Shown in pieces: positions 18,691-57,467 of a stretch of DNA of 64,000 nt. A model generated the notes under the pieces. The model had not been told where the DNA came from, made no database searches, and worked only from the letters and a program-made list of their open reading frames with translations. The DNA comes from Selaginella tamariscina. Lineage: Eukaryota; Streptophyta; Lycopodiopsida; Selaginellales; Selaginellaceae. Each line of letters opens with the position of its first letter. Positions within the stretch are counted from its first letter, which is position 1. The position numbers and the translations under genes are program-made. Location: contig PUQB01000128.1 of assembly GCA_003024785.1 (NCBI GenBank), positions 441,812 through 505,811 of the forward strand, in the 5' to 3' direction.

Positions 18691-18850
18691 ATATGAAATA
18701 ATCATACAACATATAATTACAACAATATTCTAAAAATAATATAAACGTATCATATAAATATATTGAGTATATCTCATATTGATGATCTTTAATTCGAATA
18801 TCATAAAAGAAACACATAAATGGAAGGGATTGAGTTACAAATTTATAATT

Positions 18851-18886
<36 letters not shown>

Positions 18887-21501
18887 TATTCATATTTTGT
18901 TATTCAACTAAAATTTAATATATTTTACTTACCATTGTGTAGTTACTACTTATAAATTAAAATCTTTAATAATGATAAATCTTTGTACAAAAGTAAATAT
19001 GTAAATTATAAAATCATTATTTACCATGATTTATATAATCATAACATTTTATTAAAATTTAAATTTAATTCTTATATTTTTTAGTAACACTTGAATATTA
19101 CATTAGATTTTCTTTTTATAAAAATCATAGCAATCCCAAGTTATTTAAATTAATGTTAATCATACATTTATATATCTTTATGTCATATAAGAACCACTTA
19201 ACATAGGTCCTATTTAAATTAATCTTATGATAAATATTACAAAGATATAAATTGTATAATAGCGAAAAAAATCTTTATTTATATGTATGTTTAATGCAAT
19301 TTAATGTATTTCTTATAAAGAGTATTATTGTATTTCACATATTATATGAGAGGAATATAAATAAGAAACATTGAATAATATTTAAAATATGTATTATGAC
19401 AAAGATAATTACTTCTTTTATATTTAATCTACTTAAACATCTTTAAAGATTTCAGAAAACATATGTATAATAATGAAATATTTTTTTGTTTACTAATGAC
19501 TTACCAAACTTATTATAAAAAAGAATTTATATCTTATATAGTGAGTGAGAATTTATATGTATTATAATAATACTCTTTCTATTATTTTTATTACTAAAAT
19601 ATTGTTATATTTTTTCTAGGAACATTTTAAATTTTTTATAATAATTTTAAATTTATTTTCAAGACCATTCAATGTCTTTTCATAAAACTATTTCAAAATA
19701 TAAATTGAACAACCATTTTAAATTTGAACATTTTTGAAATTTTATTTCTTATGATACATTCATCATAAATCTTCTTATACTAAACTCCTTATCAAACATT
19801 AATATTTAATAATTATTTAAATAATAATAAAAAATTATTTAATCATTTACTCTAAATAAGGAATTGAACCATACAATTGTTGTCGATATTTGTAATACAT
19901 AATTAATTGTGCATTATTTGGCACCAAATTTAAATAAAAAATATTACATTAAACTTTTATTACATATGTTATAATAACAAAATATTGTATCGGAACATAA
20001 ATTTTTTATGTGGAATAATGAGTTTTAACATAAATGAAATTTACACTTTTAATGAAATAAAAATTCAACAAGATGAATTTTGGTACAAATACCCTGTTGA
20101 CACATAAATTTACGACTTAATTTTATATTAATAAAAATACATTTAAATATATAAAATATGAACTTAATATTTTTAGTCCAAATTTGCAAATTAAAATTGT
20201 AAAAGAAAAATTATAAATCATAAATTTTGAATTTCAATACATAGTAAATTATTTTAAATATATAATGTGTAATATATATAGATATATATTATAAATACAA
20301 AGATGTAGTACATTATATATAAATTCAAATCTAGCATATAATTTTAATATAAAGTTTATTATCTTTTACTTTGATTAATATTTTTTTTAAGTAATGTTAA
20401 CATAACTAAATGAGAAATTTATGAACAAGACAAAAAAGAAAAACTTGAATCTTATTTGTTACTTTATTTTAAAAGCATATAATACAATCTAAATTATAAA
20501 AAATAATTAAAAGGATAAGAGCACCATGTATTTTATGATTTATAAGGATGAGGTTGTACTAAAAGCGTTTATTTATATTATTATTTGAGAATAATCTTAA
20601 TTTGTATATTAATCAATTGAATTATTAATTAATGTCATAAGAGGTGAAACAATATGTACGATGATGATGTGCTTTTATTAATACATACACATGTTAATAT
20701 AAGTAATTATTTATTAAGTATTTAAATTAAAATTAAATATTCAAAAGAGATTTATGGTGTTTAAGTTAAATAGAATATATATCTATAGAAGAAACTTCAT
20801 CAAATTAATACTTATAACTTTTTTATATAAATTTTTTAATAAGTGAAATATGAAGTAGTTGTGCAAATTATAATTTTTTAATAATTTAAAAAGCTTTTGG
20901 GTATTATATATATTTTTATAAAAAAAACAAATATGGAATTTCTTACACATGTTCTTTTATATGATGTAAAAATGTGTAAATTAATTTTTTATTAAACATT
21001 ATAAGTGAAATATAGTATTTTATTAGTATTATTACAAATGGTTGAAATAAATTTTTTAAAGACTAAGGCTATGGTGAAATTGGTTATTTATTAAAGTAAA
21101 TAATTAAATAATATTTATTATTAATTTAAATAATTATTAAACATTAATGTTTGATAAGGAGTTAAGTATAGAAAATTTATGATGGATGTATTATAAAAAA
21201 ATAAAATTTGAAAAATGTTCAAATTTAAAATGGTTACTCAACTATTATATTATAGGAGAATATACCTTATATTAGAAAACAAGTTTTTTTATGTGAAATA
21301 ATGAGTTTTAACATAAAAAAGACCTTAGAGAGTGAGTCGGTATTGGGTGAGAATTAAAAGTTTTTTAAGGATAAAATTGTAAATTTAAATCTCTCGCAAA
21401 ATATATATGTAAATTTAAAATTTCTAAGGATAAATATGATTAATTTCAAGAATATATATAAATTTCCCTTATTATATACATAAATATTTTAATGATTGTA
21501 T
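18691..21501. other. AT-rich noncoding DNA with R2, R3 and R4 copies
   Basis: No gene is seen. It contains a (TA)n tract near 18,858-18,890, an R3 copy at 19,500-19,705, and an R2 copy at 20,100-20,590. A short repeat with GAGTTTTAACATAAA occurs at about 19,990-20,095 and again at 21,255-21,320; the same repeat lies in the minus-strand gene at 6,172-6,245. R4 occupies 21,361-21,490, ending about 12 bp from the second retrotransposon. Confidence 0.6.
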
Positions 21502-21704
21502 TGAAAGAGCAGATATATTAAATGAAAATCTGATATTTAGTTTACAAAAAACCCTGCTTATATACAGGAGGTTCCTGCCACGTGGCACACATGCGACACG
21601 TGGCGCTGACACATGGGGGCCAGATCACCACCCATGTGTCACTACGCATGTGCGTATATACACATGCGTATATACGGTACGTTACTAATATACAGTATCT
21701 TACA
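21502..21704 (-). repeat. 3' LTR of the second gypsy element
   Basis: 203 bp, beginning TGTAAGATAC and ending CTCTTTCA on the element strand. It contains CACGTGGCA and CATGTGTCGCATGTG words and a TATATAAGCAGG box. The purine tract lies directly upstream (about 21,705-21,720). The flank reads GTAT on both sides of the whole element. Confidence 0.95.
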
Positions 21705-24700
21705 CTATCCTCCCCTCTGCGGCTGTGTAGATGGTGATGGATCTGATGGTCCTGGATCCGTGTGAGCTGGGCCATCTAAGGTATGACCAAATGTACTCAA
21801 CGAGTCTCGAACGACAAACCGTTTCATTCGAACCACGTGAACTATCTCAACCTCATGAGATCCCACCAACTTACTTGATATACCTGAGGACCAACCTTTC
21901 GGAGTACTCGGTAGGGACCAAGCCACTTGTGTAATAAACCAGTTGCAAGCCCAGGTGCAGTCAGCTTGGGAAAACGTACCAGGACTAAGTCACCGTCAGC
22001 AAAATCTGGTGGAATTTGATGTCGTGCATTGTAAGAAGATTGCTGCCGCATTTGAGCTCGACCAAGATGTTCAGCAGACTCTGCACGCAGAAGAGGCAAA
22101 ACAGCATCCAAATGTCGAGCCCACATCTTTGCATCCTCGGCACGTGGCAGATTCGATGATAACCCAATTCACTAGGCAACTTAGGATCATATCCATACAA
22201 TGCCTTGAATGGAGAGATACCAATCGAACTCTGAATGCCTGTTACATAAGCAAATCTCAAACATCGCAAATACCAATCCCAGTCCGTGTGATTGAAGTTC
22301 ACATACTTCGAGATCATACCCTTGAAGGTCCGATTCAATCGCTCCACCAAACCATCAGTTTGTGGATGATACGGAGAGGCAAATGAATGTTTTACCCCTA
22401 ACCTCTCACACAACACTCGGAATACCTCTGCAATGAAAGCGGGGCCATTGTCTGATAACATCCGCTCTGGACAAGAATGCTGCAAAACCACATTATCGAA
22501 CAGAAACAAAGCTGTTGACATGGCAGTTGCATCCGGAAGAGCACCAACCTCCACCCATCGAGTTAAATAATCGGATACAACAATGATGTACTGGTTACCT
22601 TGAGAAGAACGTGGAAAAGGTCCCATTAAATCCACTGCAATTAACTCAAAAGGGCGAGAGACATTGATGGATTCCAACACCCCATGGCCCGAGTCGTAGA
22701 GGAATTCCGAGTTTGACAAGTGGGACAACTTTGAATATACCTGATCACATCACCACGCATGCTGGCCAATAAAATGATCGGCGCAGCTTCTCCAACACTC
22801 GTTGTGACCAAGATGACCTCCAACAATAGGTGAATCATGATATGCTCGAAGAAGGTGTGGAACATATGTAGAGGGTACAGCCAAACGCCATCTGTCCTCT
22901 GGATTTGTCCCAATAAAATACAATAAACCATCCTGAAGTCGAAACTGAGCATGATATTGTCGAAACCGAGGTTCGGAAGACGGATTGCAAACGCATCGCG
23001 TAATTGCCTCGTCCATGGTTCATGTTTTTGAGCATCCTGCCACTGTTCCAAGGATGGTAAGTCGGCATCGAATACCTGAGGGGCTTGTATCAAACCGAAT
23101 GCTGCAGCTACTGCATGAGCAGGCAAAGTGGAATCGGAGAGGGGTGCTCGAGAAAGTGCATCCGCATCCACCATTGTTCGCCCAGGCCTGTGCACCACCT
23201 TAAAGTTATATACCTGGAGACGTAATGCCCATCTGGCTACGCGACCCACTAAATTCTTCCGTTTTAATAAGGAAGTGACAGCAGCATGATCACACTCCAA
23301 AAGTGTTTCACTCCCATGTAAGTAGGCATGAAGTCGTTCAAAACCCCAAACAGCAGCAAGGCATTCTTTTTCAGTAGTGGAATAATTCCGCTCAGCCGGC
23401 GTGAGTACTCGACTAATGTAAGCCACCGGGTGTCGAATTGAAGAATCCACAGCATCAGTTTGCATCAATACACCACCAATACCAACATCTGAGGCATCTA
23501 CTCGTAAAATGAACGGACGAGTAAAATCTGGGTATTGAAGCAATGGTGGAGTTGTCAGGAACTCTTTTAACTGGTCAAATGCCTGCTGACACCTGCGAGT
23601 CCACCTGAAAGATACCTGTGGACGAACTAACTCCCGAAGAGGGGCAGTTCGATCAGTGAGATGATCGATAATCGACCCAAGTACTGCACCGTGCCCAAGA
23701 AACGTTGGACTTCCTGTACTGTACGGGGACGAGGAAACTCCTCGAACAGCTCGCAACTTCATTGGATCCACCTGTAAACCCTCTCGAGATATACGGTAAC
23801 CCAAGTAAGTGGTGTCGGTCGAACCAAACACACACTTTTCAAGTTTCAACTTCAGGCCAACTTCTCGAAATCGATCAAGAACGCGCCGTACATCACGAAT
23901 GTGATCCTCCCAAGAACCAGACCCATGAATGAGCACATCGTCGATAAAATCGGCAGTGATATCAGGCATATCGGAAAGAAGCTCATCCATCATGCGTTGA
24001 AAGGTGGCAGGAGCTGAAGTCAATCCAAAAGGCATAACCAAAAACTCGTAAAGACCAAATGGTGTCCGGAAGGCCGTTTTTGGAATATCCTCCTCAGCCA
24101 TAGGAACCTGCCAATATCCTGATGCCAAATCCAACTTAGTAAACCATCGACTCTGACCCAAACGATCTAATAGATCGGCAGAGTTCGGAAGTGGATAGAC
24201 ATCTTTGATGGTAACATCGTTAAGAGGTCGGTAATCCACACAAAATCGGAGAGATCCATCAGGCTTGGGAACCAAATGAGGTTCACATGCCCATGGACTC
24301 CGTGACGGACGACACACTCGTTTACCAATCATATCAGTAACAGCTGTTCGCATGGCTGATAACTCCTTTGGTGACCTGCGTCGAACCGGGACTTTGAAAG
24401 GCTTTGCATTGCCGGTGGGTATACAGTGTCGAGTCTTCACACGTGCACCTTGGGACAGATCAAATTTGAACAAACTTGCATACTGTTTCTTAAGTTGTTC
24501 GATGCAGTGTGCTCGACACTCAGGTGACGGATCCGGCATTTGAACCTGTTGAGATGAACACCACCCAAGACCGGAATCAAAGGAGCTGTATGCGTGATAC
24601 AAACAGCAACAAACTTCTCTGGACGTAAAGGAACAGACTGCAAAGACACAGACTCCAAGCGTAATACAGGAGGAGAGAGTGAAAAATCACATGTACCTTT

Positions 24701-26222
24701 CGACTGCTTTAACCAATCACATCCCAGAATGATGTCAAAGACCTGGGAAGGGACAACCCTAAGAGACCCAGAGGGAAACTTACAGTTGGCACCCATAACC
24801 AGTGTAGTCGAAGTGGTGTACTGTGATACTGCACGAGACTGCCCATTACCATATAAAATGTGCAAGACCTTATCTGCACGTCTCAAGGGTAATGAGCACC
24901 GATGCGCCAGAGAAGTAGTTATGGAAGACATACTAGATCCTGTATCCACAAGTACTGTGACTGAAATCATTCACTCGTGCAGAAAATGTGAAAACTGGAT
25001 GATTTGGTGGAACTTGCAACCCTTGATATGCATAGCGAAAAAAATGGAGGTGGTTTCCATCGCACGGGATCCCTCCGTCGCCCGTACGATTACTGGTTTT
25101 CCGCAACAGATCCACCGCAAGAGAGCGTCATCATCTGGAAGCTCATCATCAGACATAATGGCCGCCACAGGTACACCATCCGGAACATATGGTCGCCAGC
25201 CTGGATGTGGTGGACGCCAATCAGGATACACATCGCATGCCCGCCAAGTATGTCCAGGTGCCCAACAGGCCCAACAATGAACTTGATTGGGTCGACCTGC
25301 ATTGTTCCGATTCCTCCTGTCACGAATCCGTGGATTTTGACCACCACGGGCAGGACTGGAGCAGGTGCAGGACGATTTCGTGGAGGTGGTCCACGGGGTG
25401 GGCCCCGAGGTCGACCACGAAAGGCTTGTCGTGCGGGCACATATGCAGCAGCATCAACCTCCATTGGATCAGCACGCTGAACAAGAGGAGCAGGTAACCC
25501 AAGGGGAACACGGCCCTCACCAGGCACCAACTCAAAACGTTGAGCTAGTGCAAAAGCTTCCTCCAATGTGGTAGGACGAAGAGCCCGAACGAATCGAACA
25601 AGTTCGGGTCGCATAGTTGGCCATAACATACCGAGCTTAATAGGCTCAGGCATGTTAGGATATGCACGCCGAACTAAATCCCCGAACCTAATACTGAACC
25701 GCATAACAGACTCACCAGGATGTTGTCGTATCGCATGCAGTTGTTGGAAAGCATCATCTGAATCCTCAACTTTGCCAAACGTACGTTTGAGGCATTCCGT
25801 TAACCGATTACTATTGGCTTGAATCTCCGCAGCCAATCCATTATACCACTTGAGCGCAGGGCCTTCCAAACATGTAGGGAATTCTCTGAGAGCACGGGCC
25901 TCATCCCAACCATGGTAACGAACAATGACTTGGAAATGATCAAACCAGTGGTATACATCATCTCCCGGATCACCACAAAAAGATCGGGGTCGAACCCTCG
26001 GATTTGTGGCCTGTGAAGAAGATGAAGGAGTACTAGAAGCAGATCCCCCGGCATGAGGCTCAGACGGGGAAGAGGAGGACGGACCCTCAACGAAGCGCTC
26101 CAACAACTTAGTTTGTGCATCAATAGCAGTAGCAATAATGCTAAAAGCCGTCTCCATGTTCATTGTCATGGAAACAAGAAAAAGAAAATGCGGAAGAAAG
26201 GAATACCCAACTTCTCCACCAA

Positions 26223-26424
26223 TGAAAGAGCAGATATATTAAATGAAATGATATCTTAGTTTACAAAAAACCCTGCTTATATACAGGAGACTCCTGCCAC
26301 GTGGCACACATGCGACACGTGGCGCTGACACATGGGGGCCAGATCACCACCCATGTGTCACTACGCATGTGCGTATATACACATGCGTATATACGGTACG
26401 TTACCTAATGTACAGTATCTTACA
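26223..26424 (-). repeat. 5' LTR of the second gypsy element
   Basis: 202 bp, matching the 3' LTR apart from about seven to nine differences. The sequence immediately inside it (26,222 downwards) reads TTGGTGGAGAAGTTGGG. This is not the usual initiator-methionine primer site, and I cannot name the primer tRNA. The sequence has no complement within the LTR. Confidence 0.95.
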
Positions 26425-28150
26425 GTATTTTAATTAATAATTTTTAAAATTAAGAATATTCATAACATATGGTATATTCCATATGTATTTACATTTTACA
26501 TATATTCATTTAATAATGTAAATGGATATTGAATTTTTTATGCTAATGTATATATAATATTTATGTGTTATTTAATTATTATATTTCTTTAGCCGTTATA
26601 ACATTAAATTTGTTATTGAAAATCAGGAAGAAAAATATTTTATTTATTAAAGAAGGGTAAAATAAATAAACTGTTAACAAACATGAAAACAAATTATATA
26701 GTTGCTAAGATATAAAAAATATGTTTTTCATTTTTTTATTTAAAAACATCTTAAACATTTCAAAAGTTTTATTTTTCATATGTTGTGTTTTTATTTCACA
26801 GAAAATATGTATTTATATTTATATTATGTTTTCAATATCAAAGTATATGAGAAAATATGTACTTATATTTTATATTATGTTTTCAATATCAATATTCACT
26901 AGAGAATATTAAAAGTGTGATTTTTTATAGTTTTAAGAAAATGATTTTAGTGTATGTTTTGATATACAATAAACTATACATTTTAACATATATTTATATA
27001 TGTAAATAATAATATTTTAAATAAATTAGTATGTATAGTTGTAGAGTACAACAAATACACAAAAGTATTTAAATATGATATAAAAATATACACCAATGAT
27101 ATATTTCATTATACTCTAGAGTTATATATATTAATTTATTTAGAATATATTATTATTTACACATAAAATATATATAAATTATATAGTTCTATTGTGTATT
27201 AAAACATAATAAAAATTAAATTTTTGTATAATAAACAAGTTTTTAATATAAACATATATATCAAGTTTGTGTTTCTGTTGTTCTTTTATGAAAAATATCA
27301 CAAATACATATTTTCTATGAAAAAAAAAACAATATATAAACATATTTTTTGCATGTTTAAGGTTTTTTAATGGGAAAAATATATCTTTTATATTTATATA
27401 AATATACCGATCTTTTGAATGAAATCTATGTTTACCTACAACACAGTAGTAATACTTACTCCTCTTTTTAACAAATAATGAACACTTTTCTTTTTATAAT
27501 AAATTTAAAAATAAAAAACACAACAATCCAAAATCACAAAATAATATTTGTTTTTCATTAAAATATAGGATACAAAATTAGCATTATTAAATTATTTCAT
27601 TCTAGAAACAAAAACAATGTTATTAAACTGATCTTTTATCATTATATCTTGACAATTAAATATTTTTGTTAATGTCATCGTTCAGAATAAATATTGTAAT
27701 CATATCCTAATTTTCTTAAAATTTTAACCCATGTCATCAATTGTAAATATCTTTTTTTAATAATATAAATTTTTATTAACATTATATTTTTTGATTAAAC
27801 TCCATTCAAATTGAAATTCGTATTCAAACTTGAACTTATCAAGCAGTTTATGTGAATACATACTTCAGAAAACCACCCCTTAATATTCACATGTACATTT
27901 ATATATATTATATATATATATATATTATATGTGTTGTGTGTGTGTGTGTGTTACAACATACATACATACCTTTGTTATTTTGGATAGAATGGTACATTAA
28001 CCTATTCAAAGTAGGTATAAATTATATATATACACACACACATAAATCTCTCTCTCTCACACACATACACATGTCAAGATGTAGTGTGAGAATGTAAGCT
28101 TTAATAACGGAAAAGAAGATGCCCTAACTATGAACTTAAACTAAAACAAA
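26425..28150. other. AT-rich DNA with an inverted R1 copy; 3' flank of the methyltransferase gene
   Basis: About 26,735-26,900 and 27,095-27,740 are reverse-complement matches to parts of the R1 unit (compare about 10,860-10,975 and 9,200-9,760). The remainder is low-complexity A/T, with (TA)n and (TG)n near 27,900-27,950. No coding signal. The stretch next to 28,150 is the 3' untranslated side of the methyltransferase gene. Confidence 0.6.
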
Positions 28151-28698: not shown

Positions 28699-30754
28699 AA
28701 TATATAGTACCTCTCGTGCCGTGGATATGAGGCCAAGGATAAACCGTGGAGGAGTACAGTTAATCCCGACACAGCCACGACTTTCGGGCAATTGTCAGCC
28801 AAAGCTGCACATTCACGTAAAGAATCCCGCTCACAATATTTACCCCATCTTTTGAGTTAAATGACAACCAGCTTGGAATTTGCACGTCTTCTTCCTCCAG
28901 AAGTTCCATAAGTGCCTGTAAAACATTTAATAATTAAATCTATAAAGCACACATTGCGTGCCCGTGTGTTTACAATCAGCCGCATGATTGAATATAAGCA
29001 TCATTTGTTACTATCATGTGTATATACAGCATGTCTCTCAAGTTCGATTACACATGCTTAACATGTCCATTTATGTATGTGATACATGTATATTTAGTAC
29101 GTTTCCGTGGTGTGTGTGTACACCTTAGCAGTTACTATGAGCAAAACTACATGTATGCATTATAAATAGAGTTAATAAGATACACAACTAGCAACACATT
29201 TGATAAGCCTGTCTGCATATGCCATATATCTTAACTACTCTATATTATTAACTCACAATACTCAATAGGATGTCTAGTTATTATTTAAATGACTAACCTG
29301 AGCTTGATCTTGCATGGAATTGTTTCAATAGCTAGTAAGTCTGCTCCGGAGGAAGCAAGTATCTGTAGACGCCTACGGTGAAAATCCTTGAGCTTTTGCA
29401 CAGTCATCTCTGGTCCATATTGCCCACTAAAAACCAGCATTAGAACATATATGTGTTCTGTGTGTGTACATGTATTATATTTTTATATCTATGTTATGTA
29501 TGAATTAAGTACACAAATTATTATGAACATAAATAACTATAATTAAGAACGTATAAGAAAAAAAACTGTTCATATAAGATATGTGAACACACACAGACAC
29601 ACACACACCTGTATTCAGAACCATCTGCAAGGTAAGCTCCGTAGCTTCCAATAGAAGCAGCACAGGGCAGGCTATAACGTAAACCCGATGACGAAGTCTT
29701 AGGCTTGATCTCTGTCCAGAACTTATCACGAGCTCACAAGCTAGTGAAACACTCTTCCTTAGCATTTCTTCCCCTTCTTTCTCAGATAGTCCTTTTGATA
29801 CAAAAACCTTGTACTGTTGCCTGTACAAACTACACTGGTTAAACTATGCATAAATACATACATAATTAAATAAATACGCACACAGAATATTTATACACAA
29901 GCTTACATATGTATACATAGAAATTGATGTAGGTATACAATCATGCGTACGCATTTGTACACAAACACATGCAAACACACCCATACACAGCACAAATATA
30001 TACAGCACCTTGGTTCCTGCAATTGCAAGCCACAATACACACAGGCACACACGACTTACATTTATACCCTTACAACTGTGATAGCAACTACTTACATTGT
30101 TAATATATCAAGTTTACATCTGTATTTATAATAATGTATCACACACACACACACACACATATATATATACGTGTGTGCGTCAAATATTGGAAATACTGAT
30201 ATGACGATGAAACAAGAATGTTCCGCACCTGCCTTGAGATAGTCCAATGCACCTGAAACACACAAGCAAATAGCACTTAAAATACATAAGATTAAGATAT
30301 ACAATAGATATTATAAGGTTATGGTCTGCATACAGACAAAATAGATATTTTCAACGAGAAGTTGACAACTTCCACTAACATATTACATACATGTGTGCGT
30401 GTCATATCTCTTTAACCCATATTTACATCCATCTTTAATTATGTTAATAATATGCATATGTTGTATATTATTTATTATATACATATACACAGATAACTGT
30501 GCATTTTATGCTTAATTACTGAAATAACACACATTTGGAAAATTTATAAGATTATCAAATTAAGTTTTTCATTGTTTTAATCAGGGAATTCATACCTTTT
30601 GTATAAGATGTGGGGACGTAATTAGACACAAGGCGCTCCACAGAGGATCATTTAGATCGGCCCCATTGTATTCAAGCTGCGTCGCTAGTCCGCCGTCGAG
30701 CACCGCTTGCCCGTCGTTAGCCTCCAGAAAGCTCCTCCAGCTTGTTCTTCCCAT
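28157..30754 (-). CDS. HMT: Homocysteine S-methyltransferase (S-methylmethionine cycle)
   Basis: Transfers a methyl group from S-methylmethionine to homocysteine, making methionine in the cytosol. Seven exons: 30,596-30,754, 30,197-30,252, 29,609-29,820, 29,298-29,426, 28,711-28,915, 28,404-28,474 and 28,157-28,297 (973 bp, about 324 codons, the usual plant size). Exon 1 starts [13 protein letters not shown] and carries [11 protein letters not shown]. Exon 3 ends [16 protein letters not shown]. Exon 4 has [11 protein letters not shown] and [10 protein letters not shown]. Exon 5 holds GINCTPP, exon 6 [11 protein letters not shown] and exon 7 GGCCRTTP before the stop. The three cysteines of GINC and GGCC are the family's zinc ligands. 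Introns contain long (GT)n/(AC)n tracts. Exons 2-5 carry about six small length errors (for example TTT to TT in exon 2, an extra T and a missing G in exon 3, one lost base before the exon 4 donor). The locus is therefore either a very recent pseudogene or, more likely, poorly polished sequence. Confidence 0.93.
28634..28697. repeat. (CT)n(CA)n microsatellite in a methyltransferase intron
   Basis: About 25 bp of CT followed by about 36 bp of CA, ending 14 bp from the exon 5 donor (exon edge 28,711). A second GT tract lies at 28,369-28,397 beside the exon 6 donor. Confidence 0.95.
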
Positions 30755-33002: not shown

Positions 33003-33125
33003 ATCTATGAACTCATTATAGTTTTCTATAATATGTACAGTTATTTATTATATACCATATATTATAAGTCTTAGAATGAGTATACTTTGAATACACAAAC
33101 TCCAAGTTTACTAGAACTTACACAG
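33003..33125. repeat. Left copy of a ~120-bp direct repeat flanking the third gypsy element
   Basis: Shares AGTTTTCTATAATAT, ATTATAAG-CTTAGAATGAGTA and AACTCCAAGTTTA with 39,075-39,195 in the same orientation. The third retrotransposon sits between the two copies, but its own target duplication (CCAAT) is separate. The repeats therefore pre-date the insertion. Confidence 0.75.
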
Positions 33126-33315
33126 AGAAGCTAGCTCCAAAGTGGCTTTATATAAATACATGCTTCATCTACTTTATCAATGACTTGTGAGATATGGACA
33201 TTTTGTAATATAATGTTTGCATATCACATATATATGTATGCATTCATATAAATACGTATATCCATACATAATGTAGTAACCAATATATACTTATTGCAAC
33301 TTTCATCACTCCAAT

Positions 33316-33662
33316 TGTCAAGCCATGACCTAAGAGCAAGATAACAAACAAGAAGGCTTGACTCAAGAACAAGGCAAGAACAAGGAACAAGACAAGAATG
33401 ATCGTAGAATGACTGGTGTTGATAGTAACTGATTGTACAACAATTAGGTCAGAGCTTTTATACTCACAACTCCAAGCTAATCTGGTCATGAGTCTATATG
33501 GTCATGAGCTAAAAATAGTGACCCTTATCCTTTAGGCATATCCTGTAGTATATCCTGTAGGTATATTCTATAGGCATATCCTATAGGAATATCCTACATG
33601 CATATCCTGTAAGTATATCTATAGGCATATCCTGTACTCGTATCCTGTATCCGGTCGTGACA
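33316..33662 (-). repeat. 3' LTR of the chromovirus
   Basis: 347 bp. A TATA box (TATAAAA on the element strand, 33,462-33,456) lies 31 bases before the word CAGTTACTATCAA (33,431-33,419). About 33,535-33,655 is a run of degenerate units of about 11-12 bp built on CATATCCTGTAGG / CATATCCTATAGG, responsible for the length difference between the two LTRs. Confidence 0.95.
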
Positions 33663-36600
33663 GCACCTCCTCCTTAAGGACGAGTTTCACGAGTCTTAGG
33701 ACCTGGTTTTAGCAGGATAACGCCGATGGAAAGTAGCAACTTTGGAAGAAGCATGGAGTAAGTTGGATGCAGGTTCCCAAGTGCGATCGGTAGGCAAATA
33801 ACCTTTCCAATCCACCAAGTATTGAAGTTGGCGGCGATGAAGACGAGAATCAAGAATGGCTGCAACTTCATACTCAGGTTCACAGTCAATGACCATAACA
33901 GGGGAGGAGAAAGAAGCACGACCAAGAAGAGAAGAAGGATGATACGGCTCCAACAAAGAAGTGTGAACAGAAGATGAAGTTTCACCGTAGATGGTAACTC
34001 GAGTCGGAAAGCTACAGACTTGACCTCGACCGCAATCCTGTAAGGGCCCAATCGTTGAAAATCCAACTTAGAAGAAGGCCTGTTGGTGCGAATATGCCGA
34101 CGAAGAAGCCACATGAGATCACTAATCTTATATGTAGTGCCGGTTGACGATGAGCATCAGCATAATGCTGTACCATTTCTGTGCCTGTTGAAGATGAACC
34201 CGGAGATCCTCATGTACCTAAAAAGATGCTGGAGACGATCCTGTACTGCAGGAGCAGAAGAAGGAGAAGCAGGAGGAGCAAGTCAAAACGTGGATGGTAA
34301 CCTGTAAGAGCAAAGAAAGGTGTCTGACCTGTAGATGCTGGAACGGAGTTGTTGTAGGTAAACTCCGCCATTGGAAGAAGGTCCAACCAGTTGTTCTATT
34401 GGTAACTGATGAAGCAGCAAAGATATTGCTCCAAGGTCTGAATCATGCGTCTGACTGCCCATCAGTTTGTGGATATCCTGAAGAAAGGTCCGCTTTAACC
34501 TATAGACTCCGGAGAAGTCTCGCCAAAACTTGGACATGAATTGTGGGCCTTGATTAGAAATAATGCTCTCAGGAAGACCATGATGTCGGAATACTTCGCG
34601 GATCACCAACTCAGCAGTTGTCTGGCCTGTAGCAGTCTTGTGACATGGTAGGAAATGAGCTTGTTTGGTGAAACGGTCAACCACGATAAGAACTGCATCA
34701 AATCCACGAGAAGGAGGAAGATCTATGAGGAAATCCATAGAAATGGATCTCCAAGGAGCAAAAGGAACAGGAAAGGACGAAGAAGACCAGAGGGCGCGTG
34801 ATGAGGCATCTTCGACCTATTTGCAGGTGTCACAACTCCGTACAAACTTGTCCACAAAACCTCGCAACCCAGGCCACCAATAGTTGCGAGTCACCAACTC
34901 AACTGTCTTGGCCACACCAAAATGTCCTGTAGCCGGGGTATCATGACAATCCTGTACCACACGAGTCCTGCAAACACCAACAGGAACATACAGGAGACCT
35001 TCCCGTATAGGAGTCCGTCCTGTATGGTAAACAACTTGTAGTCTGTACGGGAACTGGAGGAAGAGGAACTTGCGATGTCAGGACTAATGTGTGAAAACAC
35101 ATTCCTTGCCAAGTCGTCTGTAGCCAACTGCAAACGGATGTCCTGTAGGAGTGTGGAATCTGCTGGAGCCTGATGAACTTGTAGTGCTGCAAGCCGAAGT
35201 CAATCAGGACCCAACAACACTTGCTTTTGACAGTCATATGCAGGATCGCCCGGGGTCGGTGCAAGGTAAGAGCGCCTAGACAATGCATCCGCCTTGCCAT
35301 TTGAAAACCAGGCCTGTAGATGATGACGAAATCAAAACGTGATAGGAACTCCCCCACCTAGCCTGTCGCCGACTGAGAACTCGAGCCGTTTGAAAATACT
35401 CCAGGTTCTTGTGATCCGTAAGAACTTGTACAGGATGCGCAGCACCTTCCAGGAAATGCCGCCACTCCTCGAACGAATCCACAATGGCCTTGAGTTCCTT
35501 GTCATGAATCTCGTAATTGATCTCCGCCGAAAGGAACTTACGAGAGTGAAAAGCTACAGGATGAAGCAACTTTATCTTCTCCAACTTGTGATAGAACAGA
35601 TCCTACTGCAAAATCGACATCTGCTTCAACGAAGAAGGGACGAGAAGGATCAGGATGTGCTAAAATCGGAGCTGTCGTGAAGATGTTCTTGAGTGTTGTG
35701 AATGCATGTTCTGCCTTGTCGGACCAAGAGAACACTCCTGTGCGCTTGGTGAGTTCCGTGAGTGGAAGTACACGCTTGGAGAAGTCCTGTATGAAACGCC
35801 TGTAGAAGTTTGCAAAGCCAAGGAAACATTGTACATCTCGTACAGACTTGGGCCTCTCCCACTCCGCGATAGTCTTCACCTTGTGCATGTCCATGGAAAC
35901 GCCAGCAGGAGAGACGATGTAGCCCAAGAACTCACAGTATCCCTGTCAAAGAAACACTTCTCCAACTTCGCATACAGGCCATGCTCGCGAAGCCTCTGTA
36001 AGACTAGTCGTACATGCTTGTCATGAGCCGCCTGGTCCTTGGAGAAAATCAAAATGTCATCGAGGTAGATTACCACAAACTGGTCCAAGAAGTCACGAAA
36101 GATGTCGTTCACCATGTGTTGGAACACGGCTGGGGCATTGGTAAGTCCGAAAGGCATCACCGTATACTCGAAGTGTCCATACCTTGTACGAAAGGCAGTC
36201 TTCCACTCATCGCCTGGACGAATCCGTACAAGATTGTAGCCCCTCGTAAGTCGATCTTCGTGAACACCTTTGCTCCTTGCAGCCGATCGAGAAGTTCCGG
36301 GATCAATGGCAACGGGTAGTTCCGAATGGTGACTTGATTCAAACCTTGTAGTCCACAACCAAACGTAAACTCCCATCTTTCTTCTTGACAAAGAAGATAG
36401 GTGCTCCTGCAGGGGACTTTGAGTGACGAATGAAGCCGGATGCCAAGTTTTCCTCGATGTACTGACGAAGAACCTCCAATTCTGTAGGTGACAGTGCATA
36501 AATCGGTCCGAACGGTGGAGTCTTTCCTTCCACAAGATCGATAGGACAGTCGTAGGACCTGTGAACAGGAAGAACTGCAGCCTTGTGCTTGTCAAAAACG

Positions 36601-38537
36601 TCTGAAAGGAGTGATACTTGGATGGCAGGGAAGAAGGAGGAGAAGAAGGAACAGGAGAAGGAGATTGAAAAACAGGGAATCAGATACAGGAAAGGTAGAA
36701 GAGGACGTAGGAGTTACTTGGAAGGCAAAAAGATGAAAAGGAGCAGGATCAGTGGCAAGTTCATGCATGGTAGTGGTAAGAACTCGAGAGGAGAAGGAGG
36801 GAGCTGTGATTGAAAAAGAGGAAGGATCTTGGGGGTGGAACAGAAAGAGTAATGAAAAGAGGCAGGATTGGGAGAAACATGTGTGGATGTTGACAAGTGT
36901 ACAGGATTGGAAGAATCCTGTACAGAAGTCCGTGGATGCACAGGAGTGAGGAGAACTTGTGAGTGTGCTGACGAACCAATAGGAGGTGGATCCTGTCGAG
37001 GAGGAGTCTTCAACACTGATACAGGAACAGGCACGGTCAATCCTGTAGCTTGTACTGCCTCAGACACTAAGATGTATTCTGCACACAGGAAGGTACAGGA
37101 TTGGTCCTGGTTGCCGGAGAGGAAAACGTGAACGTCCTAGACCTCCAGTTGATCTGAGGATTTGCAACAACGAACCATGGCATGCCCAAAATGATGGGAG
37201 TCGACCGAGTCTTGATCAAGTTGAAGGAAATTGAACAGTTGAATGCGCCATGACTGCAAGAGAGAGTTTGGTAGCATGGGTAACTGCGCCAGAAGCAATC
37301 AGACGACCATGGCCACCTCTACAGGAACTGCACGCTTCAACTTCACCATCGGAATGCCATGTTGAGTTGCAAAAGTGTCATCCATGAAGCATGCATTTGC
37401 ACCAGTGAGCAGCACCAATGGAGCCTGCACCTACGTCCAACTTCGTGGCTCCTAAACGAAGTGAACATTGAAGTTTCCGATTGAACTTCAGCTTCAACTT
37501 CACGCGTCTTGAACTTTAGTTCAACTTCACGCGTCTTGAACTTCCTGGCTTTAATAGGACATTTCGCCGCCTTGTGTCCTACTTCACCACAATACAAACA
37601 TAGATTCTCACTGCGGCGACGTTGCTTCTCAGCAGTGGAAAGTGGGCCACGTTTGTATTTCTCAACCTCCATAGGAACTACTTTAGAAGGTGTCGCAGAA
37701 GTATGTACCATAGCTGCAGGATTGGTTTGCAGGAACTGCTGAAGGGATTTTTCTTGACGACACTCGAACAAGCGGTTGTCGCAACGAACGGCCTGTTGCA
37801 TGAATCTTCGCTAATGTTTAGGCATCCGGTAACGAAAGGAGAAGGTCCTTCACATCATCCCTCAACCCAAAACGAAAGTGTTCAATCAATGCAGTCTCGT
37901 CCCATAGAATGTTCGTGCAAAGTTGCTGAAATTCGGATGCATAAACGGAAGCTAGTCGAGATCCTTGTGTGAGCTTTCGTAACTTCGTGCATGCGGAACG
38001 GTACTTATCGGGATCTCCAAATCAAGCTTCAAAGGCAGCCACGAAACCTTCAAAGTCTTCCATCAATGGGTCGTCACGTTCCAGCAAAGGGCAACCCAAG
38101 CCCGTGGAGATCCAACTAGTAGGGATGCCAAAAGGCCAACCTTTTGTGCATCAGTCGAGTAGCGACGTGGTTGCATGCGAATCAAAAGCCTAATCTGATT
38201 CAGGAACCCTTGGAAATCGGCACGATGCCATTGAACTTTTCTGGCATGCTAGTTTCGGCTCCAAAGAAGTGTTCGATGTAGAGGAAATCACGGATGCTTG
38301 AGAGAAGAGCATGTGCAGTAGCCTTGGAGGATGCATCAGCAGTTGCATGCACCGCATTGGTGGAACCTTGCAGATTTGTGACAACTTGGCACAAAGTGGC
38401 TAGCTCATGAAGCAATATTTGGTGCTCACGTTGAAATTGCTCAAAATCGGCCATGATTTATGAAAGAAAAAAAGAGAAAAAATGAAAAAGAAGAATCAAG
38501 GAAAAAAAAAGTAGCTGAAAATCAAAAGCTATGAAAG

Positions 38538-38655
38538 CAGTTACTATCAAACTGTCAAGCCACGACCTAAGAGCAAGATAATAACAAGAAGGCTTGACTC
38601 AAGAACAAGGCAAGAGCAAGAATGATCATAAAATGACTGGTGTTGATAGTAACTG
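38538..38655 (-). promoter_or_regulatory. Candidate self-priming site of the chromovirus
   Basis: On the element strand the 5' LTR ends at 38,553. Two bases later comes TTGATAGTAACTG (38,550 to 38,538). Its exact complement, CAGTTACTATCAA, lies within the LTR at 38,655 to 38,643. A TATA box (first T at 38,687) places the expected transcription start about 30 bases downstream, almost exactly at 38,655. The predicted RNA would therefore begin with the 13 bases that pair with the primer site. In the fission-yeast element Tf1 and its relatives, the RNA 5' end folds back in this way and replaces the tRNA primer. The site does not resemble the usual initiator-methionine site TGGTATCAGAGC. The start site is inferred, not observed. 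Confidence 0.6.
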
Positions 38656-38916
38656 ATTGTACAATAATATAGGTCGGAGCTTTTATACTCACAACTCCAA
38701 GCTAATCTGGTCATGAGTCTAATATGGTCATGAGCTAAAAATAGTGACCCTTATCCTTTAGGCATATCCTGTAGTATATCCTATAGGCATATCCTGTAGG
38801 AATACCCTGTAGGTATATCTTATAGGCATATCATGTAGGTATATCCTATAGGCATATCCTGTAAGTATATCCTATAGGCATATCCTGTAACTCATATCCT
38901 GTATCCGGTCATGACA
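38553..38916 (-). repeat. 5' LTR of the chromovirus
   Basis: 364 bp, TGTCA...TGACA ends, same TATA box and CAGTTACTATCAA word as the other LTR, and more units in the CCTGTAGG/CCTATAGG tract. Confidence 0.95.
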
Positions 38917-38921
38917 CCAAT

Positions 38922-39480
38922 TACTATTGGGACACACAGATGAAAGATGGGTGATGGGTGTTGTTTCTCAGATGGAGGATGGTTGGTTTTATCTTGAGGA
39001 TTTATTAACATCAATATTGGTATTAATTTATCACAAGCAATATTCTTAGTGATGTGTGTGCGTGCATGTGTTTGCTATGGACTCATGATAGTTTTCTATA
39101 ATATATATATTTATTTACTATATAATATGTATTATAAGCTTTAGAATGAGTATATTCTAAATACACAACTCCAAGTTTATTGGAACTTTTGGATAGGTTT
39201 ATTTGTGTGTGCATGCATGTTTTCTCTGTACATATCCTCACCTATATCATATATTACAAATGTATATATAATAGCCATGTGTATCGGGTTTTATATAAAA
39301 GACTACTATACATCTAGTTCATTGGCATGTGAACACACACATACATATATTATATTTAAGTATTTAAAAATATATGTTAAATCTCTTTTTTATAATTGTA
39401 CTATGTTTTTAGTAATTAAAAACACAATTATAAAGTTTCTAATTAAACTTTAAAATTTGTTTTTAACTACAAGGTTGTTT
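38922..39480. other. AT-rich flank with the right copy of the ~120-bp direct repeat
   Basis: 39,075-39,195 is the second copy of the repeat at 33,003-33,125. The rest is AT-rich, with no gene seen. Confidence 0.65.
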
Positions 39481-49475: not shown

Positions 49476-50477
49476 CGTGTGATACGGATTTATACCAAAT
49501 TGTACGGAAGTGGGCAAGTTTTAGTGTGCCTTTTAGCCTGCCCCTATACGTGTGTGTGAAAGACATATTACTTTTTCAACAAGTGGCATCAAATAAGATG
49601 TCCATTCAATTATAGCATTATATATAATATAAAATTATAAAATTATAAAACATTACAGTAATAAAATTACATAACTCTTTTCAAGTTGATTTAAACTTGT
49701 GCTGAATCTTTATATATATAGTAACTCTATTTTCAAGGGTAAAACTCGTACAGAAACAAAGTTTACATTGATGGATTGGCAAATATTAAGTATCCTTTTA
49801 TAAAATAGATTATAAAATATAAGTATTTATAAATACATCATTTTAAAGTATGTATGTTTAAAAAATACATAAAGAATATTTTTTATCTATATATAATGAA
49901 AATTATATATCACATTTACATATTTATAAAATGTACATTTAAACATTTAAACATTAATCACGTTTATATATATAGAGTATTTATATCCTAGCATTACATA
50001 GTTTTCCACATGTCAATTTTAGAATATTCTTCTCTCACTATAAACTGTACCTAATTAAACGCGTTGAGCTATTACATCAGCCATATGGCCAGTTGGAAGT
50101 TTCGACGCCATGGCGGCACTAGTAGTGGCGGAGTGAGCTCGCTGTGTATTAGGTACTCATCTGATATGTGCAAGGCGCGATTCAAGAAATCCCTGTCTAA
50201 TCTCAAAAGTCTCGTTTTTGCGCGTATAATCCCGTTTTTTCTCGTTTCACGGATTTCTTTATCGATTTCTTGTGAAATCCGGGTAATCTTGCATATTTCT
50301 TCATCGATTTGTGCTAAGGAGCGGCTGGAGTCCGCGAAATCCAGGTATCGGTCGAGGCGTCTCGTGACATTTTTCTGTCTAATCTGCGATAAGATCTTCA
50401 AAAATCGTTGAAGCATTCACTGATCTTGCTCGAAGAATCCGTGGAAAATCGTTCTTTTTGAGCAGCCTCTGTGAAAA
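49476..50477 (+). promoter_or_regulatory. Upstream region and probable 5' leader of the ankyrin-AAA gene
   Basis: DNA up to about 50,040 is AT-rich, with TATA-like words (TATATATATAGAG, 49,965-49,977). From about 50,065 to the ATG at 50,478, composition shifts to balanced GC without a recognisable protein, which suits a transcribed leader. A 115-codon open frame at 50,064-50,411, open on both strands, shows no family resemblance and is treated as leader sequence. Confidence 0.4.
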
Positions 50478-52979
50478 ATGCAGCCGCGGCAGCCGATGCG
50501 CGGTATGAAACCGGCGACATGCCATTCCTTGGCGCAAGCAGGCGATGTACAAGGCCTGCGGACAATGCTGATTCAAAATCCGTCTTTGATTAACTCTCGG
50601 AATCCTGTTGTAAGTTTCTCTTGTAATTCTAGTTTGTTTTTCCCATTTTATCGGATTGTTTCGTGAAAACAGATGTCACAGACGCCATTGCAAATGGCGG
50701 CGGCGAGCAACCAGGAAGACGTTGTCAGGATGCTGCTGGAGTGGAATGGATCTGAGAAAGTCGATCTGGAGGCTACGAACATGGTAAGAACCTTGATAAT
50801 ATCTGTGGAGTGTACGCTAAGAATCTCTGTTTTGCAGTACGGAGAACCGCGTTGCACCTGGCAGCAAAGAATGGGTGTGCGGAAGCTGTGAGACTCCTCC
50901 TAAAGTACAATGCATCTAAGGAAGCGAAGGCACTGGTATGTTGTGTGTGTCTATGTGGTGTTTGGCTCAACTTTTGGGAATAATGAATGCAGAATGGAAT
51001 GACGCCATTGCATTTGGCGGTATGGTCGGCAGTAAGGGCTGCCGACTGTAAGGCCGTAGAGGTGCTACTTGAATACAATGCAGACGTGTCTCTTGAAGAC
51101 AATGTAAGTCGTATAAAACATGACGTGTGTATGTGTGCTGGCAAAGCAATCAGATTATATCGTATGAATATATTTATTCGTACCATGCATGCTATATAGT
51201 ATGCCTCCATATGCTTTGTATTGAGATTCACTATACCAAGATACTGGTTTTGATTCAATGCATATGCATACCCAATACACAGACACACATGTTTGTGACA
51301 AGTTTGACTATGCAGGAGAAAACTGACACCCCTGAGCCACCTTCCAAAGAGCTCGGGAAACGAGAAACTACAAATCATGCTGAAAGCCCAGCTGGAGCTT
51401 CAAAGGAGACAGAAAGCGCAGAAAGCAATATCAGGCTCCAAGCTAAAGATGATGGAGCTTGAGAAGGAGGCTGGCCAAGATTGTGGGCCTAGACGATCTC
51501 AAGCTCCAACTTCGCAAGTGGGCAAAAGGTATGTCTTTTGCTTGTTTATGTGTGCGTGTGGCCGCCTATATACGCAAAAATGTACTAAAATGGATATATA
51601 TTCAGGCATGCTTTTGGACGAGCAGCGAGAAGCCTTGGCTTGAATGTTCCTAGGAGGAGGCTTCCTCATATGGCTTTCCTTGGCAATCCTGGAACAGGTA
51701 CGTGTAGTTTCTTCTATATAGTTTTCGCTTTTATCACATGAACTATCTTTAAAGAGACGGGAATACATCTGTTGTTTGTGAATGATGTATCTTCATTTTC
51801 TTGAATGCTTTTTGTTTTGCAGGAAAGACCATGATAGCGCGTTTGCTTGCCAAACTCTTGCACATGGTTGGTGTCTTAGAAACCGACAAAGTCATCGAAG
51901 TGCAACGAACTGACCTTGTTGGCGAGTTCGTTGGCCACACAGGCCCAAAGACGAGAAAAACGGGTAAATTTTCGTATTTATGTATGAATGTGATTCTATG
52001 TGTTATCAATACGACTGATGGATCTTATAAGAATACATTTGAGGTCATATTCAGCAGGCACACGAATGGATATGAGGCAACTTGCATCTCTCTCTCCTTG
52101 TGTGCTGCGTGTGTGCGTGTGTGTTTCAAGCTTATAAAATTATAATCATGCAGATTAGAGAAGCCGAAGGTGGTATCCTGTTTGTGGACGAGGCATACAG
52201 GTTGATCCCGGCACAGAAAGCTGATGATAAAGATTACGGCTTGGAAGCATTGGAGGAAATAATGTCTGTCATGGATAGCGGCAAAATTGTGGTCATCTTT
52301 GCGGGGTATATCATTATCATATATAATACATTTTCGGGATAATATATTGGCGGATTTATGACGTCTCTGAGTAGATATGCAGAGCCAATGAAGCGAGTCA
52401 TCGCTAGCAATGAAGGCTTCTGCAGGAGAGTGACGAGATTCTTCCACTTTCCGGATTTCAGCACATATGAGCTCGCAGGTATCTATACATGCTCTCTCTC
52501 TCCCTCTCTCCCTCTCTCCCTCCCTCTCTCTCTCCCGTGTGTTCACAAAGTATCCTTTCCAACAGACATGATTCACCTCAAGATAAAGGAACAAGATGAG
52601 TATTCGCCAGTTTATGGGTTGAAGCTAGATTCAGCATGTTCAACTGGTAATGTCTTAATGTTTATCAAAGTGTTATTTATTATTATTTTGGTAGGAGCCA
52701 TTGCGGAATTATTAGAGTGCAAAACAACAGAGAAGCAACGAAGCGAGATGAACGGTGGACTGGTCTGGCCGTTGCTTACGAATGCCAAGGATCATCTCGA
52801 CTATAGGTAAGCCATAAAACTCAATACATAAAATACGTAAGTTAATTAAACAATGTATTCCTGAATAAATCAGGTTGGATTTGGATTGCTTTGACGAGGA
52901 TGAGCTGAGTTCTATCACTCTTGAAGATCTCGAAGCTGGCCTCGAATTGATTCCTAGGCAATCAACGTTATCGATCTGA
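50478..52979 (+). CDS. Ankyrin-repeat / CbbX-type AAA+ ATPase
   Basis: Twelve exons: 50,478-50,609, 50,673-50,783, 50,838-50,935, 50,993-51,103, 51,316-51,528, 51,606-51,697, 51,823-51,963, 52,154-52,305, 52,375-52,478, 52,566-52,646, 52,695-52,806 and 52,874-52,979 (about 484 codons). Exons 1-4 encode ankyrin repeats (QTPLQMAAASNQEDVVRMLL; GMTPLHLAVWS), exon 5 a Lys/Gln-rich linker and KLQLRKWAKG. The AAA core has Walker A GNPGTGKT split across exons 6/7, pore-loop region DLVGEFVGHTG, Walker B GGILFVDEAYRL, sensor 1 VVIFAGY and arginine-finger NEGFCRRV. It matches the plant family of Arabidopsis At3g24530 in length and order. CbbX itself remodels inhibited Rubisco in bacteria and red-lineage plastids; the green-plant ankyrin form has no established client. 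Exons 3, 5 and 6 contain single-base length errors in short runs (for example AAA to AA in exon 3, GGG to GG in exon 6), while all other exons and splice sites are perfect. Confidence 0.95.
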
Positions 52980-53398: not shown

Positions 53399-54216
53399 TT
53401 AGGATGTATATATTGGCTGACTCTTGAAGGTGTATGAATATTCCCCAGACATGAAAAGATCTGCCACGATCTTGTAGAAAGCCTCTGTGAAATGATAATC
53501 GTTCCAGAAGATATATTTGAAGGATTATTACATGCCTTAGCTTGTAACTCAACCCCATTGATAGAAACCGTATCCCCACATTCAACTGTTGTTGTTTTTG
53601 TGAATATTCCGCAACAGGCCTCCGAAAGATGTTTAAATCCTACACATTTGCATGTATGTGTAATGCATACACATACATGCATATGTATGTGTGTATGCAT
53701 ACATGTATTTATCCATGTATATATATACGTGTATCAATGTGTTTTATAGATATACTAAGTATACTATGTATATGAGGTATATCTGTAGTACTTGCAGTAC
53801 ACACACAGACACACACTCACGCATAATACATATATTTGAACAATACGCATACAATGATGTATACATGAAGTTAGTGCATGTCTGTGTATGAATTAATCTC
53901 ATATGGTTATATATAGTACTTACCATAATCATGATAATTGTTTATGATCTTCTCCATGACACCATAGAAGTCAGCAATAGTCAACACTGAACCGGTCAAC
54001 TCTCGACTAAGGTCTTTGACCGTTGACTCGAGCATTGAGCGATGGAGCTGACCGACCTTGTTAAATTCTGGGAGACAGCCCAGTGTATCGTATTGCTGTG
54101 TCGGGTCGTCTTGTATTGTGAAAGGTGGATTACACCCTTGAGCAGGTACATTTATTATTAAGAAATTCCTTGCACCTGCTTGATATAAACCCTACACAAA
54201 TATAAAACCGTATACT

Positions 54217-54264
<48 letters not shown>

Positions 54265-54994
54265 AAATTGTACATTAGTAACAATATAATTATAGTAGTT
54301 TACTTTAAACATTATGCATTTCATATTATATACGTGTGATTTAATGTGATATAGTATATATGCATGTACTTATGTATGTATATACCCGAATCATTTTCTC
54401 GATGTTTCCTATAACCAATGGAACATATTTGAGTAGGCCCTTGAAGCTTACTCCATTTCTGTATATGTAAAAGTAGTCATTCCCACCTATCTCACCAACT
54501 ATATATAATCCTTCTGCAAATTGCTTTGCACTTGGAAACGTCCCTGTATATAAAAAATCCACATATAAGTATGTATTGTATATTAATAACTCTCATTGTC
54601 TCCTCAGTTCATTCACCTATACATACACAGTGACATATATCTACAGTTCTACTAACATACACATGTATACACACATACACGTATGTGCACACACAACACA
54701 CACTATTATACCAAGCTTGCTGTGAGCGGCATCTCTCTGGAACTGAATGAACCATTGGAGCTGTGTGTTAAGTTGGACAGTGGGATTTAGAATTGTGAAA
54801 TTATTGAAGTTGAAGTAATCAAAACTCAGAGCTCCTGCTCCTTGAACAGCAAAGTTTGCACCACTTTGAAAGTCTGTGGATGCCAAGTATGGGTTGAGGA
54901 ATGGAAGCCCAAGTGCACTTGCTGTAGAATAACATGTACAGAGTTAGTGTGTGTGTGAACCCAATATCACAAAACATATAAATTTAAGAAATTA

Positions 54995-55038
<44 letters not shown>

Positions 55039-55636
55039 CATTGAAAGTTTTTAATTTACTTTTCCTATTTTAATTTTTTTTGTATTTTGATTTTTAAAAT
55101 TTATAATAATTAATTGAGTGTGTGTGTGTGTGTGTATATATATTTATTTAAAAAATAGAACAAAATATATTATGATATATATCTGTGTTTTGAACTTAAA
55201 TACTATAAATTACAAATTAATTATATATTCTTTTTAATTTTATTTTTTTAATTATATTTTATTTGTTATTTTTGAAATGCGGGAAGTTTTAAATTTATAT
55301 ATATACAATAAAACCTGTTGATCACAAAAATATGACCCATTTCACCATGTTTATTGTTGCTTGGAACCTACACACGTCTACACACACATATGTAAGTGTA
55401 TTATATACCTATGAAATCCCGATAAGCCGGCCATCTGTGTTCCTGCCAGTAGCATGTCCGAAGTATGTCATCCCATAAGGAGGCTGTGTATATCGGTGGG
55501 AAAACTCGGGAAATGCAACGACTGCATTCCCGGGATCGGACAGGGAATCCCCAAACTGGAAAATTGCTGGGAATTTCTGGGCAAGAATTATTTGAAATAA
55601 CGAAAGAAACACTGCAAAATTAACAACTAAAGCCAT
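53399..55636 (-). CDS. GDSL-type esterase/lipase, secreted
   Basis: Five exons: 55,409-55,636, 54,712-54,921, 54,386-54,543, 53,924-54,191 and 53,399-53,639 (about 368 codons, normal for plant GDSL lipases). A hydrophobic signal peptide (MALVVNFAVFLSLFQIILA) precedes QKFPAIFQFGDSLSDPGN, the block I serine. Block II lies in GANFAVQGAG, block III in GEIGGNDYF; later come ARNFLIINVPAQGC, SEACCGIF and ECGDTVSINGVE. Block V reads WNDYHFTEAF: the usual WDxxH aspartate position is Asn, with an Asp one residue later. Two single-base losses (just before the exon 1 donor, and in an A-run in exon 5) shift the frame, but the reading continues correctly afterwards. The substrate is unknown; the family hydrolyses acyl or acetyl esters, often in the cell wall. 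It is part of a local cluster of at least five related copies. Confidence 0.9.
54215..54262. repeat. (TA)n(GA)n microsatellite in a GDSL intron
   Basis: Lies 24 bp upstream (in gene direction) of the exon 4 acceptor edge, within the intron between exons 3 and 4. The pseudogene copy has a similar TA-GA tract at 57,397-57,466 outside its exon 3 remnant. Confidence 0.9.
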
Positions 55637-56363
55637 TTTTACAAAAGAAACCTCACGAGAATGTCGTATATATCACATTACGTTGTTGAATTGGTACGTC
55701 ATATTATAAAACAAAAAATTGGATTTTTTTAATGACTTATGCTGAAAGAAATAACCATAACAGGTGGCGTCAAAAGTATGGTCCGCAGAGACAGAACTAG
55801 GTGAGATGTCATTTTCCAATCAGTGTATATATATAACATCAGATAGAGTGTTATATTTAAATATAGCTTCTGTGTATGTTGTTAATTAATTCACTTCATT
55901 TAAACTGCAAAATTATTATTATATTTATTAATAATTTTTATTAGCATATAAAATGACTATAAATATAAAAAAAAATTATGTCGTATTCACTGGTTTTGCA
56001 TAGAGCACGAAAGGTATAATTCTCTTGAAATGGTTGTTATTTTTATATAATAACTGATGGTCTGACCCTTTGAAGAGAAGGTGAATATCTACTTGCCTAG
56101 CAAAATGTGTAATAGTTTTTCCTGTGTTTACTATGACATCATGTAATGATCTAATATATATATATATATATATATAATTTAAATGCAGAGAAAATTATCA
56201 TATTGTTTTATTAAATCACTAAAAAAGGCATTTAATTTTTAAATCCCCAAAACGATAAGTTTTAAAAATATCATTTAAAGATTCTAACCTTAAATTATAT
56301 ATATACATATATCAGCAGTAGTAATTATTTCTTAAATATATAATCCATGATAAACACACTCTC

Positions 56364-56394
<31 letters not shown>

Positions 56395-56619
56395 TTGAAT
56401 CATCTATTCAATCAATGGATTTTTTCTCAAATCAATAGAGTTGGGCCTAGGTTTTCAAAAAAGTTGTTCGTCCGTTCCCCTTGGACAATATATATATAGT
56501 ATAAAATTAAATAAAGGTTATCTTATAAAATATATAATAATTAAATTAATTAAGTTAAAAATTAAAACTTATTAAATTGATAAGCTTGCTAAATGTTCAT
56601 AAATAAATCTGTTTATGTA
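55637..56619. other. Promoter side of the GDSL gene and AT-rich spacer
   Basis: A TATA-like GATATATAC (minus strand, about 55,665-55,675) lies about 35 bp upstream of the ATG. The word ACATCAGATAGAGTGTT near 55,837-55,853 recurs at about 62,944-62,961 beside the exon 1 scrap, so promoter DNA was duplicated with the gene. (TA)n and (GT)n tracts occur near 56,157 and 56,365. No gene is seen. Confidence 0.5.
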
Positions 56620-57380: not shown

Positions 57381-57394
57381 GATTAGCTTGTGTT

Positions 57395-57396
<2 letters not shown>

Positions 57397-57466
<70 letters not shown>
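57397..57466. repeat. (TA)n(GA)n microsatellite
   Basis: About 20 bp of TA and 40 bp of GA at the truncated 5' edge of the GDSL pseudogene. Confidence 0.95.

Positions 57467-57467
<1 letters not shown>

Follow-up and report, generated by a model that had tools for sequence, protein, structure and literature searches.

Self-priming, in which the 5' end of an element's own RNA primes minus-strand DNA synthesis, has been shown for Tf1 of Schizosaccharomyces pombe and proposed for Tj1 of S. japonicus (PMC7175516 and PMC4600332, in the portions available). According to the same portion of PMC7175516, the first 11 bases of the Tf1 RNA pair with the primer site, and the RNA is cut between bases 11 and 12. 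In plants, the accessible sections of Neumann et al. 2019 (PMC6317226) predict self-priming in the TAR lineage of Ty1/copia, which includes Houba and Osr-1, and in the Tcn1 clade of mosses and club-mosses. The predicted self-primer lies 0-5 bp past the LTR in most of the Tcn1 clade, and the plant Tcn1 elements are viewed there as near the fungal and vertebrate Tf1/sushi group. For SM-Tcn1 of Selaginella moellendorffii, the excerpt consulted of Novikova et al. 2010 (PMC2864245) states that no site for either tRNA priming or self-priming was found.

The window analyzed here is a stretch of 64,000 nt from Selaginella tamariscina. It contains a decayed copy of a large, apparently Tf1/sushi-like (Tcn1-type) chromodomain family, and this family most likely self-primes, the RNA 5' end of the element serving as primer for minus-strand DNA synthesis (probability about 0.9). 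Going by the parts of the published descriptions at hand, the Tcn1 clade and SM-Tcn1 share with the element a non-seed plant host (a Selaginella in the case of SM-Tcn1), a classical chromodomain, a 5-bp target site duplication (TSD) and TG...CA ends of the LTRs. In the same published description SM-Tcn1 is without a reported site, whereas the site of the family studied here is plain, abundant and co-varying. Tf1 and Tj1, as portrayed in the sources above, have an RNA 5' end complementary to the primer site, as is predicted for the present family; their hosts are fungi, and the pairing predicted here is 12-13 nt long. The TAR lineage is another case of a plant LTR element with predicted self-priming, but as summarized in PMC6317226 it belongs to a different superfamily, Ty1/copia.

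A sequence-only reading of the locus had assigned the element to a plant, which is the case. A DYW-PPR frame from the genome is 70% and 69% identical to two Selaginella moellendorffii proteins along its whole length, and the remaining 118 of 120 listed matches reach at most 48%. Of four matK matches, the two inspected read as antisense to 28S rRNA and were set aside as host evidence. The sequence-only reading had also named self-priming as not known to be described in plant elements of this type, and this view gives way to the earlier prediction for mosses and club-mosses in the section of PMC6317226 cited above. The novelty is therefore limited. Self-priming was predicted before for this clade, and what is added is the co-variation of self-primer and site and the contrast to SM-Tcn1. 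We found no mention of such co-variation in the literature searched, which does not prove its absence from print.

Structure and relatives of the element

The Ty3/gypsy LTR element lies on the minus strand at 38916-33316 and is flanked by a perfect 5-bp TSD, ATTGG (38917-38921 on the 5' side and 33311-33315 on the 3' side). The LTR ends are firm because this duplication matches on both flanks. The 5' LTR (38553-38916, 364 bp, TGTCATG...TTGACA) and the 3' LTR (33316-33662, 347 bp) both have TG...CA ends. A 2-nt spacer, GT (38551-38552), separates the 5' LTR from the putative primer binding site TTGATAGTAACTG at 38538-38550, and a purine-rich tract, TTAAGGAGGAGGTGC (33663-33677), adjoins the 3' LTR on its upstream side. 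The start of a gag-like frame, assigned to gag by position alone, is found at 38200-38457 with its ATG at 38454-38452. It is followed by a gag zinc-knuckle piece (37343-37810; PF00098, weak and below the cut-off), a reverse transcriptase (RT) piece (35942-36271; PF00078) near which the frame is broken, an RNase H piece (35538-35945; PF17919), an integrase H2C2 zinc-binding piece (34817-35077; PF17921) and an integrase core piece (34283-34816; PF00665, 29.3 bits, below the curated cut-off of 32.6). A chromodomain (33720-33872; PF00385, 52.9 bits against a cut-off of 25.1) lies downstream of the integrase pieces, all of these features being on the minus strand. Its motif EYEV...VDWKGY carries Y, W and Y at what we take to be the aromatic cage positions of HP1. 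Frameshifts break the coding region of this copy. Comparison of its two LTRs over 334 sites shows 22 differences, and the resulting K2P distance of 0.070 marks it as an old insertion.

In sequence identity the polymerase comes closest to elements of vertebrates and fungi, and the element does not resemble the chromovirus types of seed plants. Among the best 120 of 7281 matches of the RT piece, identity reaches 77% in Thamnophis, 76% in Micrurus, 75% in Heteronotia and 66% in Phyllobates (two snakes, a gecko and a frog), as compared with 48-58% in Tanacetum. Ranked by bit score, Tanacetum proteins lead the same best 120 of 7281, at least one of them (P0001) owing to an RT stretch that is present twice. 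With an RT-RH-INT piece of 666 residues from a sister copy, 14 of the best 120 of 6173 matches name an organism, 10 amphibian and 4 fungal, and the named vertebrate relatives are 49-65% identical over part of the length. In a 12-row RT tree built without a Tcn1 reference, six Tanacetum rows form a separate group (91/89, not starred), and the window row is not resolved among the vertebrate rows. We read the vertebrate relatives as sushi elements, and the element as a whole looks like a chromovirus of the Tf1/sushi (Tcn1) type. The vertebrate members of this kind are its closest named polymerase relatives by identity (RT 66-77%), with a different host and a different sequence. Seed-plant chromoviruses (Tekay, Reina, CRM, Galadriel) have a tRNA-Met primer site in most cases, whereas the leader of the present element is without TGG.

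The surroundings of the element contain several other features. Outside both LTRs, at 33005-33119 and 39075-39188, are two direct repeats of some 115 bp with 85% similarity, and given this arrangement the element may lie within an older repeat. A second LTR element occupies 21502-26428 on the minus strand, with repeats of about 207 bp that are 96% alike and with long open pol frames. Two direct repeats of about 460 bp (17896-18353 and 29069-29532; 96% alike, 11.2 kb apart) enclose it and reflect either a nested insertion or a long duplication. The region 8001-20000 is very AT-rich, with 16-20% GC in 4-kb steps, and holds several related repeats in both orientations. As read from the frames, 50400-52810 has exons resembling ankyrin-repeat and AAA-ATPase proteins, and at 53907-60972 three intron-containing plant genes that resemble GDSL esterases appear to be clustered, one of them inverted.

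Predicted pairing of the LTR word with the putative primer binding site

The primer binding site is the exact 13-nt complement of a word, CAGTTACTATCAA, that is present in the 5' LTR at 38643-38655 and, as an exact sequence match, in the 3' LTR at 33419-33431. On both strands of the window, exact matches occur only at 38550-38538, 38655-38643 and 33431-33419. No other inverted match of at least 12 nt links the 5' LTR to the internal region. A 13-bp LTR complement at offset 2 lies within the range for Tcn1-type self-primers (at least 10 bp, at an offset of 0-5 bp from the 5' LTR). Chance was rejected as the source of the complementarity by dinucleotide shuffling of the 120-nt leader, with the LTR kept unaltered and offsets 0-5 past the LTR scored. 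None of 20000 shuffled leaders gave LTR complementarity of at least 13 nt; 12 nt was reached once and 11 nt once.

These results agree with much of the sequence-only reading. The exact 13-base complementarity that it reported is confirmed with the word in both LTRs, and the Tf1-type self-priming arrangement that it proposed is supported by a 13-nt complement 2 nt past the LTR. Its offset of two bases stands, and its placement of the site inside the 5' LTR is corrected, since the site lies just outside, on the internal side. The TATA box that it saw 31-32 bases before the word in both LTRs is there: TATAAA at 38682-38687 precedes the word by 32 nt in the 5' LTR, and the distance is 31 nt in the 3' LTR. 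That reading had further noted that the usual site for an initiator-methionine tRNA is missing, which is consistent with a 100-nt leader (38552-38453) that contains no TGG.

The family is large. The word occurs 4950 times in the whole genome assembly (300.7 Mb, 1391 contigs), as against 8 occurrences of a reversed control pattern. An RT search of the genome gave 11637 first-look candidates, of which the best 150 were scored. The 5' junctions of 100 of these, selected by RT regardless of the word, were examined; the 50 outside the sample include the window copy. The 150 rank highest by RT match, which biases the sample towards close relatives. Word and site were readable in 84 of the 100 copies. 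The remaining 16, in which one or the other was unreadable, were left out, including five with a site and no alignable word (L062, L118, L137, L147 and L164). Perfect 13-nt pairing is present in 62 of the 84 copies and perfect 12-nt pairing, at positions 2-13, in 74. The distance from word to site ranges from 134 to 338 nt in the sampled copies and is 105 nt in the window copy, so the pairing is kept although the length of U5 changes. When genome copies were ranked by a vertebrate RT, the 136 listed were near-identical, with no other family visible among them. Many of these have open frames of at least 1000 codons, often near 1361 and with a maximum of 1420, and this points to recent replication. 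A scan of IMG/VR for relatives gave 4 pattern matches and 0 confirmed ones.

Word and site change together at one position. In the 84 copies, site substitutions within positions 2-13 are confined to position 8, where 4 copies are altered, and in all 4 the word is changed to match. In the same range the word carries 11 substitutions: 4 are matched by the site, 5 are unmatched (positions 7, 7, 8, 8 and 13) and 2, both at position 8, face a gap in the site. Fisher's test for position 8 gives p = 8.6e-6 in this sample, a value that ignores kinship. Across the genome, in one spacing range, 40 loci are altered at position 8, some of which also belong to the RT-selected sample. The change is complementary on both sides in 30 of them and confined to the word in 10, and none is altered in the site only. 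A search independent of the word, for a 19-nt context with the changed position-8 base, found 37 variant sites genome-wide, and 35 of the 36 readable ones have the matching change in the LTR word. Of the 35, 29 are shared with the 30 double loci and 6 are further cases. Beyond those 29, the variant sites number 8: the 6 with a changed word (spacings 202-339), L169 with a wild-type word and L170 without an LTR word in the stretch examined. At position 11, a control taken in another spacing range, 6 loci are altered on one side (5 in the site, 1 in the word) and none on both. The co-variation check of the two 13-mers put forward with the sequence-only reading is thus passed at the single position that is altered on both sides in numbers. 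Because the copies are related, and because the co-variation rests on this one position, it may represent one or few events.

The outermost pair behaves differently. In 9 copies the site carries a substitution opposite position 1 of the word, and only one of these, L069, is complementary there; its matching change runs counter to an absence of constraint at this position. The pairing constraint seems to end at the A of the word, with the outermost pair not kept. If pairing is kept only where RNA exists, this lack of constraint at position 1 suggests that the RNA 5' end is at A38654 (word position 2) and that the primer is about 12 nt long. A38654 is preceded by C, a pyrimidine-purine context, and lies 33 nt after the beginning of the TATA box. 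For the proposal that the RNA begins exactly with the word, at 38655, the TATA placement is supported, and the start would shift to one base further in.

Explanations of the pairing

A tRNA or half-tRNA could be the primer, with the LTR complement incidental. The consulted part of PMC6317226 reports that some copia lineages of plants use half-tRNA primers. In the present leader the CCA 3' end of a tRNA cannot pair, because there is no TGG in the 100 nt past the LTR, and on this ground priming by a tRNA 3' end was rejected. The variant sites track the LTR word, and shuffling did not once reproduce the LTR complementarity, so that a primer of this kind is very improbable. ARAGORN and Rfam (at the gathering threshold) found nothing in the window. 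The second LTR element offers a contrast case; a tRNA-type site, TGGTGGAGAAGTTGGG, is found at about 26221-26206, 1 nt after the LTR end as read.

The pairing could also be a relic, set in an ancestor and without a role in the present family. The age and the frameshifts of the window copy fit such a history, as does the shared ancestry of the copies. This reading was rejected, and its probability is very small, since the 12-nt duplex is kept in so large a share of the sampled copies and the derived position-8 variant is matched on both sides. The many long open frames, with their suggestion of recent replication, also stand against it. A somewhat better, though still unlikely, candidate is a helix that serves packaging, dimerization or translation control, with priming by another primer. 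The predicted fold of the 205-nt leader of the window copy does pair its 12-nt 5' end with the site (z -2.17, a modest value, as 4 of 200 shuffles fold as well), and co-variation by itself shows only that pairing is kept. However, the helix begins 2 nt beyond the LTR, at the place from which minus-strand DNA has to start and where no TGG is present for a tRNA 3' end, and the kept pairing stops just where the RNA would be expected to start. Tf1 primes with the same layout, as described in the available portion of PMC7175516. Self-priming at the level of the family is thus well supported as a prediction from sequence comparison.

In the self-priming cycle that we envisage, transcription would begin at the A of CAGTTACTATCAA, and the first 12 nt or so of the RNA would fold back onto the primer binding site that lies 2 nt beyond the LTR. 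By analogy with Tf1, RNase H would then release this fragment by a cut after about nt 12, and extension would proceed from its new 3' end towards the 5' end. Such a cycle leads to a further, tentative proposal, for which we consider the odds to be somewhat unfavorable: the primer binding site may be rewritten by copying of the RNA primer, so that a mutation in the LTR word passes on to the site in a one-way concerted evolution. The position-8 loci, with their 30 double, 10 word-only and 0 site-only changes, fit this process. The site-only change of L169 and the position-11 loci, 5 of 6 in the site and 1 in the word, count against it, and we read these site-only loci as later decay. The odds were also lowered for L015, a word-only locus; its 3' LTR word is wild-type, so the change in its 5' word may postdate the insertion. 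If rewriting of the site is true, the point at which copying ends would locate the RNA start to a single base with nothing more than the genome sequence.

The family fits the placement of plant Tcn1 elements near the fungal and vertebrate Tf1/sushi group, as presented in the accessible text of PMC6317226. In the published work consulted, self-priming in plants rests on short sequence matches. The joint change of word and site in a large family provides a second kind of support, and the family is a natural data set for the evolution of such primers.
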